A stretch of DNA of 64,000 nt from positions 62,001 through 126,000 of the forward strand of contig NZ_CM001368.1 in NCBI RefSeq assembly GCF_000177215.2, written 5' to 3'. The stretch's first letter is position 1. Every line of letters begins with the position of its first letter. Below are positions 43,342-45,580 of this stretch, piece after piece. A model generated the notes under the pieces. That model saw nothing but the letters and a program-made list of their open reading frames with translations. It searched no databases and was not told the DNA's origin. This DNA is from Solidesulfovibrio carbinoliphilus subsp. oakridgensis. GTDB taxonomy: Bacteria > Desulfobacterota > Desulfovibrionia > Desulfovibrionales > Desulfovibrionaceae. The position numbers were made by a program, and so were the translations under genes.

Positions 43342-44142
43342 TTATTCCCGTCCCAGCATTTTCATGGCCGCGTCCACACTCGCGTTTTCGTGCACGATGG
43401 CCGTCACGGCCTGCAAGAGCCTGGCCGGGTCCGGGTCCTGGAAGATGTTGCGGCCGACCGAGAGGCCGGTGCCGCCGGCCATGACGCTGTCCGCGATCAT
43501 GGTCAGAAAGCCGCGCGTGGAGTCGGTCTTGGGGCCGCCGGCGATGACGACCGGCACGCAGCAGCCGGCCACGACCCGGGCGAAGCTGTCCGGATCGCCG
43601 GTGTAGGGCACCTTCACCATGTCCGCGCCGAGCTCGTTGCCCACCCGGGCGCAGTGGGCCACCACGTCCGCGTCGAACTCGTTTCGGACCTTCGGTCCCC
43701 GGGCGTAGACCATGGCCAGGACCGGCACGCTCCACGAGGCCGCCGCCTCGGTCACCATCCCCAAGTCGTCGAGCATCCGGGCCTCGGTCTCGTCGCCGAG
43801 GTTCACGTGCACGGACACGGCGTCGGCCCCGAGCCGGATGGCCTCTTCCACGGTGCAGACAAGCGTCTTGGCGTTGGGGTAGGGCGACAGGTTGGTCGAG
43901 GCGGACAGGTGGATGATGAGCCCCACGTCCCGGCCCCGGGCCCGGTGGCCGCACCGCACCACCCCCTTGTGCATGAGCACGGCGTTGGCGCCGCCGGCCA
44001 CGATGTTGGTGACCGCCTCGCGCATGTCCGCAATGCCCTCGATGGGGCCGACGGAAACGCCGTGGTCGAGGGGCACGATGATGGTGCGGCCGGTGTCGCG
44101 GTTGAGGATGCGTTCGAGGCGGATGGATTTGCCGATGGTCAT
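43342..44142 (-). CDS. archaeal-type AroA' aldolase (ADH synthase family)
   Basis: A 266-residue DeoC/class I aldolase. It matches 2-amino-3,7-dideoxy-D-threo-hept-6-ulosonate synthase (the MJ0400 type), the first enzyme of the alternative route to dehydroquinate in archaea and some sulfate reducers. Marks are [15 protein letters not shown], the Schiff-base lysine in [11 protein letters not shown], the Tyr in MVYARGPK, and phosphate loops IAGGPKT and [10 protein letters not shown] plain fructose-bisphosphate aldolase is the alternative. A leader peptide with four Tyr codons and a terminator upstream support an aromatic role. AroB' is not adjacent. Confidence 0.88.
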
Positions 44143-44198
44143 GGTGCTTCTCCTTGGCTTTTTGCGCGAAGGAGCCGGGACCCCGGCGGCGACTCATG

Positions 44199-44231
44199 AA
44201 AAAGGGCCGCCGGGCATTGCGCCCGCGGCCC
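44199..44231 (-). terminator. attenuator terminator before the aldolase gene
   Basis: On the minus strand GGGCCGCGGGC pairs with GCCCGGCGGCCC (one bulged base) around GCAAT, followed directly by TTTTT. It lies 27 bp after the leader-peptide stop and about 56 bp before the aldolase ATG, as expected for transcription attenuation. Confidence 0.82.
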
Positions 44232-44257
44232 TTGGCGGCGGTGTTGTGGGATGCGGC

Positions 44258-44353
44258 CTATCCGGCCGCGCCCTCCGCCTGGCCGCGAGCGCGATACCCG
44301 TAATAATACGAGCTGGAAAAAAGGGGGCGCTTGGCGGTCATGCGGCGTGTCAT
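44258..44353 (-). CDS. putative tyrosine-rich leader peptide
   Basis: A 31-codon open frame (27 codons from a second ATG at 44341). It contains FSSSYYYGYRARGQ: four Tyr codons in a five-codon run (44294-44308). It ends in TAG ahead of an intrinsic terminator and the first gene of aromatic synthesis. This is the layout of an attenuation leader in which scarce Tyr-tRNA stalls the ribosome. GCGGCC near its 3' end (44264-44269) can pair with GGCCGC of the terminator arm, giving a possible antiterminator. No good ribosome binding site precedes either ATG. Confidence 0.6.
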   Translation of the reverse strand: MTRRMTAKRPLFSSSYYYGYRARGQAEGAAG

Positions 44354-44359
44354 GGCGAT

Positions 44360-44389
44360 ACGCTACCAAAGGCCCGGCCGGCCCGTCAA
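44360..44389 (-). promoter_or_regulatory. possible promoter of the leader-aldolase transcript
   Basis: On the minus strand TTGACG (44389-44384), 18 bp, then TAGCGT (44365-44360). The -10 match is weak. Transcription would begin about 44353, at or next to the first leader ATG, so the leader might be translated leaderless. Confidence 0.4.
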
Positions 44390-45228: not shown

Positions 45229-45270
45229 GCCGCTCTCGCATTGAAACGGGCAGGGCTTCTCCCGGGCCTG

Positions 45271-45366
45271 CCCGTCCGTTCCCGTCCGTTCCCGCCGAGC
45301 CCGTCCGTTCCCGCCGAGCCCGTCCTTTCCCGCCGAGCCCGTCCGTTCCCGCCGAGCCCGGTCGCC
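45271..45366. repeat. 19-bp tandem repeat
   Basis: CCCGTCCGTT occurs twice (45271-45290). Then the unit CCCGCCGAGCCCGTCCGTT is repeated at 45291, 45310 and 45329, with a partial fourth copy at 45348. Copies differ at single bases. The region is intergenic. Confidence 0.85.
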
Positions 45367-45580
45367 GGGACAGGGTCCCTCGCCTCCCCCGGGAGCCTCG
45401 GTTCCCCTTGCTTCCGTTCGCTTTTCCCGCCGCCATCCACCGCCCCCGGTTCCGTGTCGGGCCAGGCGGCTTTTTCCGTTCCGGGGACGGCCGGCCGGAC
45501 CGCCGGTGACGGCCCGTGGCCGGGGCCTTGGCTGCCCGCCTGGGGCGAAACGCCGGCCAAAGCGCCTTTGCGCCGCCATT

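Follow-up and report, generated by a model that had tools for sequence, protein, structure and literature searches.

The window, by which we mean the whole 64,000-nt stretch of DNA that was analysed, carries on its minus strand a gene for an AroA'-type aldolase, and between a predicted promoter and this gene lie a short Tyr-rich frame and the parts of a putative RNA switch. The features are as follows.

43342-44142, minus strand: AroA'-type aldolase (2-amino-3,7-dideoxy-D-threo-hept-6-ulosonate synthase; TIGR01949), the gene proposed to be controlled
44196-44320, minus strand: the whole element, as delimited by its match to covariance model R1 (71.8 bits, with this copy among the training sequences)
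44199-44232, minus strand: intrinsic terminator, composed of a hairpin (44232-44203) and a T tract (44203-44199)
44220-44230, minus strand: segment 3, common to the antiterminator and the 5' arm of the terminator
44234-44279, minus strand: apical part of the antiterminator in the predicted fold, GGCGG (44279-44275) with CCGCC (44238-44234)
44258-44353, minus strand: leader peptide frame of 31 codons with YYYGY; Tyr-rich leaders are found in 14 rows of the orthologous clade
44281-44291, minus strand: segment 2, the 5' strand of the antiterminator, lying in codons 21-24 of the leader immediately behind the Tyr run
44360-44389, minus strand: predicted sigma-70-like promoter, TTGACG (44389-44384), 18-nt spacer, TAGCGT (44365-44360)

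The aldolase scored 380.6 bits against TIGR01949, the cut-off of which is 299.45, and its closest solved relative is MJ0400 (2qjg, E 5e-97). Judging from its family and from the presence of AroB' in a paralogous operon, the enzyme would open the alternative aromatic route by catalyzing its first step, and no homologue of AroB', PheA, EPSPS, TyrA, or TrpE was found within 7 kb downstream of its gene. The leader frame (44353-44258) translates to MTRRMTAKRPLFSSSYYYGYRARGQAEGAAG, in which the Tyr codons 16, 17, 18, and 20 occupy 44308-44300 and 44296-44294; four Tyr in five codons were found in just one of the 411 short ORFs (8-70 codons) of the window. An intrinsic terminator is present between the frame and the AroA' gene, and its hairpin is absent from the listing of a generic terminator scan. 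The initial annotation had described the 31-codon YYYGY frame, the GC hairpin with TTTTT, and the AroA'-type aldolase as the next gene, all of which were confirmed in place, but the gap between the leader stop codon and the hairpin is 25 nt, not 27 nt as it had claimed. A further 56 nt separate the end of the T tract from the start of the AroA' gene (44142). Elsewhere in the window, at 45250-45400, there is a short GC-rich tandem repeat with units around gggctcggcgggaacggac, which sits between the response-regulator gene and an ORF of exosortase-like appearance.

The predicted promoter would place the leader inside the transcript, because its -35-like box (5 of 6 positions) lies 36 nt before the leader ATG; a transcript beginning downstream of the leader, which had been named as an objection to attenuation, does not agree with this arrangement. 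Transcription would be expected to start on the leader ATG itself, both the -10 assignment and the start site being predicted. The same spacing recurs in the relatives: a 5-of-6 match to TTGACA was found 23-60 nt before the leader ATG in 130 of 138 distinct leaders, against 18% in shuffles, and when distances of up to 75 nt were accepted and the start was set at the first in-frame ATG lying no fewer than 27 nt further downstream, the box was found in 134 of the 138. It lies at most 40 nt from the ATG in 112 of these 134 leaders, 107 of them at 35-40 nt, a distance from which the transcription start is expected on or next to the leader ATG. A Shine-Dalgarno-like site accompanies only 11 of the 112 leaders with a near box but 20 of the 22 with a box at least 44 nt away (Fisher 5e-14, with kinship ignored), which suggests that the leader frame is translated leaderless. 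In seven leaders, six from one genus (L178, L183, L184, L186, L200, and L203) and L193, the -35 box stands 54-58 nt from the ATG and is followed by a Shine-Dalgarno-like site; the attenuator family looks as though it had moved between leaderless and led translation starts.

The two helices expected of an attenuator were examined in alignment A1, which comprises 51 sequences after the removal of nine loci with doubtful frames and of near-copies (over 0.9 alike). In the antiterminator helix, 97.4% of the cells are paired and 5 of the 10 pairs have changed on both sides; none of 500 shuffles was as high on any measure, and slid versions of the helix were paired in 36-44% of cells. In the terminator helix, 98.6% of the cells are paired with both-side changes in 7 of the 11 pairs, and the observed values were unreached by 500 shuffles, except by one shuffle on one measure. 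The two helices are mutually exclusive, and both carry compensatory changes. When the aligned sequences, that of the window among them, were folded without constraint, a long antiterminator hairpin resulted, whose apical part, standing outside the covariation count, encloses a hairpin over the leader stop codon in the predicted fold. The partner of the terminator arm had initially been sought in a GCGGCC segment at the end of the leader (44269-44264), but this segment closes a small apical hairpin in the fold instead, and the true segment is found further upstream, at 44291-44281 in codons 21-24. In the family, segment 2 lies 3-28 nt past the aromatic run, which is variable (YYYY, FYFWYWF, QYWYYWF, and FFFFSFF) and is followed by constant RNA. 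The recurring tail of the peptide (ACGLG or ARGRG) is the coding image of the RNA strand that pairs with the 5' arm of the terminator.

In 84 of 93 cases, the pairing energy of segments 2 and 3 ranks among the top 5 of 100 shuffles; into this test the leader of the own-genome paralogue L003 was entered by hand because the detector had fused it with a longer frame. The pairing in the window is unexceptional for a GC-rich sequence, being equalled by 13 of 100 shuffles (z -1.0), and five other Tyr copies do no better, each equalled by 21-47 of 100. When a stalled ribosome was modelled in the window, the antiterminator and the terminator had the same energy, -57.0 kcal/mol each, and the antiterminator would be complete (-54.0) before the 3' arm of the terminator is transcribed; given this tie and this order, the order of synthesis, that is, kinetics, should decide between the two structures. 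With the usual ribosome footprint, a ribosome whose A site is stalled at Tyr 16 or 17 leaves segment 2 open, and one stalled at Tyr 20 largely covers it. Because segment 2 ends 20 nt before the leader stop codon, a ribosome waiting at the stop would cover it incompletely. When the whole leader was folded, no clear pause hairpin between segments 1 and 2 was seen.

A DNA search of the same genome revealed a second place with 74% identity from the terminator into the gene. This paralogue (L003, L254) heads an aro-trp supraoperon in the order AroA'-AroB'-PheA-EPSPS-TyrA-TrpE-TrpG-TrpD-TrpC-TrpF-TrpB-TrpA, in which AroA', AroB', PheA, EPSPS, and TrpD exceed their NCBIfam cut-offs, TrpE is matched best by anthranilate synthase models at scores below cut-off, and TyrA has no NCBIfam match at 1e-30; the names TyrA, TrpG, TrpC, TrpF, TrpB, and TrpA are those we presume from sequence and position. 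Its leader, MQSLTNLTSGFYFWFWFSHARGQGGVRSN, holds FYFWFWF and is followed by the same kind of terminator. R1 has two matches above 70 bits in this genome, each before an AroA' gene, and the next one reaches 30.4 bits; three of the further matches (L167, L168, and L171, of 26-30 bits) have no aromatic-rich leader and were taken as chance terminators. A third homologue in the genome, of the DhnA type (195 bits, below the cut-off of 299.45), has neither an aromatic leader upstream nor an R1 match.

Relatives were collected by a profile search of genome contigs, from which the best 80 of 162 loci were used, and were supplemented with further TIGR01949 loci, the window, and L003. An aromatic-rich frame with a terminator precedes 92 of 116 AroA' genes, and by the stricter measure of at least four aromatic residues in seven plus a terminator, the count is 89 of 116, compared with 2 of 428 for other ORFs of these loci that served as controls; near-copies were kept in either set, some of the 116 coming from the same organism, and L003 is missed in the 89. 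The detector also overlooked L012, L216, and L220, whose leaders were read by eye as FFTYWYYW, FFFFFFF, and FFSFSFFFFF and which all match R1, so the classes without a leader in these counts and in those below are upper bounds, apart from the tally of 30 genomes, which was corrected. R1 was trained on A1, so that scores are high by construction for the window, for L003, and for several of the genomes drawn from the order, and its training excluded the symporter loci, the trpE locus, and the matches outside the order that are described below. In Desulfovibrionales, 115 of 120 genomes, some of which supplied training sequences, gave a match at E <= 1e-3 and 114 at E <= 2e-7; in a draw from the phylum, 23 of 297 genomes did so at 1e-7, and 11 of these belong to the family of the window. 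Judged by sequence, the window element belongs to a family of homologues found in front of AroA' genes across the whole of Desulfovibrionales. Six solitary copies from another genus (L053, L056, L059, L062, L063, and L065) showed no detected leader and no R1 match; L061, from the same group, does match R1. In the tandem AroA' duplicates L020, L005, L089, and L106, the second copy showed no detected leader immediately in front of it.

The codons of the leader agree with the content of the operon behind it. The comparison covered 101 distinct genes with at least 2.2 kb of downstream sequence, nine shorter ones having been dropped and identical proteins counted once. Where AroB' follows downstream, Trp occurs in the 10-residue core of 58 of 60 leaders, with 7 more genes lacking a detected leader; where it does not follow, Trp occurs in 2 of 26, with 8 more lacking one. 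Among the 60 loci with at least 6 kb, Trp is found in the leaders of 27 of 27 TrpE operons (none detected in 3 more) and of 2 of 22 TrpE-less operons (none detected in 8). The association of Trp codons with the operon has a Fisher P of 8e-17, which ignores kinship and so overstates independence, and the two to four independent context pairs on the tree, which agree in nearly all pairings, are too few for significance.

In the 59 genomes of the family that were summarised, 29 had one AroA' copy examined and 30 had two or more. The 29 comprise 26 with an F+Y+W leader and three with an F/Y leader; 22 of them (19 F+Y+W, three F/Y) have a single TIGR01949 match at 1e-50, and the other seven (five of one genus, G085, and G098) have a second, weaker match outside the leader count. 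Exactly one F+Y+W leader was found in each of the 30 genomes with at least two copies examined, and in 24 of them it is paired with a Trp-less leader, which is of the Tyr type in nine, the Phe type in 12, and Phe/Tyr in three, one of the Phe-type pairings (G062) being doubtful; in the other six (G005, G084, G110, G093, G076, and G106) the second copy has no clear leader. Here the Tyr type means at least three Y and at most two F in the core and the Phe type at least four F and at most one Y, so that "type" does not always mean "only". The AroA' proteins with Tyr leaders fall on one side of a branch, which holds 14 rows with a local SH-like support of 97 in a FastTree tree and 12 rows with an SH-aLRT of 94 in a quick IQ-TREE tree; L102, whose leader is typed as Tyr in an aro operon elsewhere in the tree, was set apart from this clade. 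The members of the clade are drawn from more than two genera, and in all of them (14 of 14) the 10-residue core contains 3-5 Tyr but lacks Trp. Comparison of the upstream regions of orthologous genes, which the initial annotation had proposed as a check, showed Tyr-rich frames and terminators retained in 14 of 14 rows of the clade of the window gene, including 6 of 6 genomes of the same genus and 3 of 3 of another genus, and this conservation supports the tyrosine attenuator that it had suggested. The tree requires that leaders of the Phe type arose several times. Probably ancestral is the F+Y+W leader that precedes the aro-trp supraoperon, and the Tyr type, which belongs to one clade of duplicated AroA', would give the isozyme its own end-product signal.

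The element is also found before other genes. In 13 loci from several genera (L152-L164; e.g., L152:3873-5480, minus strand), it precedes a sodium:solute symporter gene, whose protein matches PF00474 in L152, and the leaders are mostly Phe-rich (e.g., FFFFFGFRFF), that of L162 being F/Y. None of the five among the 13 symporter proteins that were compared with NCBIfam was assigned to a substrate over cut-off, but regulation makes the symporter a candidate phenylalanine transporter. In one locus (L169) the element stands before trpE. The gene for a TRAP solute-binding protein at L166:543-1603 (plus strand) lies behind a WNLNWWWRFW frame and a similar terminator and is likewise a candidate for a tryptophan-controlled transporter. 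Outside the order, R1 matched L276 and L281 before ordinary DAHP synthase I genes (PF00793) with F/Y leaders, which means that the arrangement is not bound to AroA'. L274, also from outside the order, resembles L276 in its F/Y leader and related terminator, and at L277:440-1432 (minus strand), again outside the order, a gene of the metallo-beta-lactamase fold (PF00753) lies behind a frame with six consecutive Tyr codons (RAYLYYYYYY) and a terminator.

These observations make it very likely that the window element is a ribosome-mediated transcription attenuator that senses charged tRNA-Tyr and controls the solitary second AroA' gene. The transcript would start on the leader ATG or right beside it, and translation of the short frame would follow without delay. 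When charged tRNA-Tyr is scarce, the ribosome would halt on the Tyr run and leave segment 2 (44291-44281) free to pair with segment 3 (44230-44220), by which the terminator would be blocked and AroA' would be made. When tyrosine is plentiful, the ribosome would overrun segment 2, segment 3 would pair with the 3' arm of the terminator, and transcription would stop. That the terminator is an ordinary one with a chance frame in front, and that there is no regulation, deserves next to no credence: hairpins do form easily in GC-rich sequence, and the pairing in the window taken alone is no better than in shuffles, but such a coincidence is countered by the conservation across the order, the paired changes in both exclusive helices, the low count among control ORFs (2 in 428), and the rarity of the Tyr run in the window (1 in 411). 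Direct reading of tRNA-Tyr by a T-box or another ligand-binding RNA is just as hard to believe. In other species, tyrosine genes are said to be under the control of T-box RNAs (PMC1262725), but the conserved Tyr-rich frame would be superfluous for a T-box, and the identity of the element with a T-box or other Rfam RNA was rejected on the basis of scans of the window and 12 loci, which gave no match over the gathering score at the element and, among nine sub-threshold matches, all far below that score, no T-box.

The remaining alternatives accept the attenuator and concern what else it does or what it senses. The leader transcript or peptide might also act in trans, like rnTrpL and peTrpL of Sinorhizobium meliloti, and so have a second role beside attenuation, and the predicted leaderless start is the arrangement reported for rnTrpL (PMC7298713); this seems improbable because, apart from the aromatic run and the ACGLG/ARGxG motif that the RNA imposes, the peptide varies widely. 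Somewhat less improbable, though still unlikely, is an attenuator that is not tyrosine-specific and senses the general aromatic supply or the speed of translation, the Tyr run being the decayed remnant of an F+Y+W run. Some Tyr-type leaders do retain one or two Phe codons close to the run (L034, IAFFGPYYYY; L052, LPGFFYCYSY), and the leader AroR of Corynebacterium glutamicum, which has a Tyr codon, is reported to answer only to Phe (PMC11802643). The Tyr of AroR is, however, flanked by Phe codons on both sides, whereas the Tyr run of the window is without Phe, and the uniform composition of the Tyr clade across genera also speaks against a decayed remnant.

We somewhat favor the idea that the leader-peptide attenuators of this family were re-coded repeatedly after duplication of the first gene of the route, each isozyme copy reporting its own end product, with F+Y+W leaders in the aro-trp supraoperon, Tyr leaders in one clade, and Phe leaders arising several times. 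Such a system, mostly leaderless, would be an RNA counterpart of the AroF/AroG/AroH division in E. coli, and its occurrence before trpE and the sodium:solute symporter gene, whose product would then be a phenylalanine carrier, would belong to the same picture. Regulatory specificity would in that case have been shifted by codon swaps in a peptide of about 30 residues with the surrounding RNA switch unchanged, so that the evolution of isozyme control could be read from sequence alone. It would also mean that a leader-peptide attenuator can be driven by tyrosine alone, that regulation can assign a likely substrate in sulfate reducers, as for the predicted phenylalanine symporter, and that a ready tyrosine sensor is on offer.

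When set against the classical leader-peptide attenuators trpL and pheL of E. coli (PMC11802643), the window element differs in that its segment 2 forms part of the frame, follows the regulatory codons at once, and dictates a peptide motif, in that these codons are Tyr, and in that the start is probably leaderless. The common ground is a short frame with regulatory codons and an exclusive antiterminator and terminator, which trpL and pheL have likewise. A leaderless start has been reported for the Trp leader of trpE(G) in S. meliloti, where the trpL transcript begins at the leader ATG (PMC7298713), while that of the window leader is only predicted. The literature searched yielded no leader-peptide attenuator that answers to tyrosine alone.

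The initial annotation knew of no described tyrosine leader for this enzyme in a sulfate reducer; a putative attenuator from the Merino database, though not one for a solitary tyrosine copy, was already listed in 2005 before aroA'>aroB'>aroQ-pheA>aroF>tyrA>[trp operon] of Desulfovibrio vulgaris (PMC1173090, Table 7). That attenuator resembles the F+Y+W paralogue of the present genome in gene type and operon; the main text of that paper never uses the term "leader peptide", and the passages concerned give no amino-acid specificity and no second, solitary aroA' (PMC1173090). Attenuators for aroA-tyrA of Vibrio are listed there as well. In D. hydrothermalis, ten mainly aromatic genes are reported to change together with pressure, and the cluster holds an aldolase, 3-dehydroquinate synthase, pheA, aroA, and tyrA, which is consistent with one operon (PMC4162548). 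The leader AroR of C. glutamicum aroF is comparable to the window leader in that a leader peptide attenuates the gene for a first aromatic step, for AroR with Phe and Tyr codons and on experimental evidence, but it precedes an ordinary DAHP synthase, reads Phe-Tyr-Phe, and answers to limitation of Phe and not of Tyr (Neshat 2014, via PMC11802643). AroR is the one tested leader with Tyr codons that the literature searched yielded, and its indifference to tyrosine counsels caution about the proposed response of the window leader. Finally, the division of the first step among separate isozymes tied to Tyr, Phe, and Trp is shared with AroF, AroG, and AroH of E. coli, but these enzymes are regulated through TyrR/TrpR and feedback inhibition, in contrast with the RNA leaders and the AroA' route considered here (PMC5343134).
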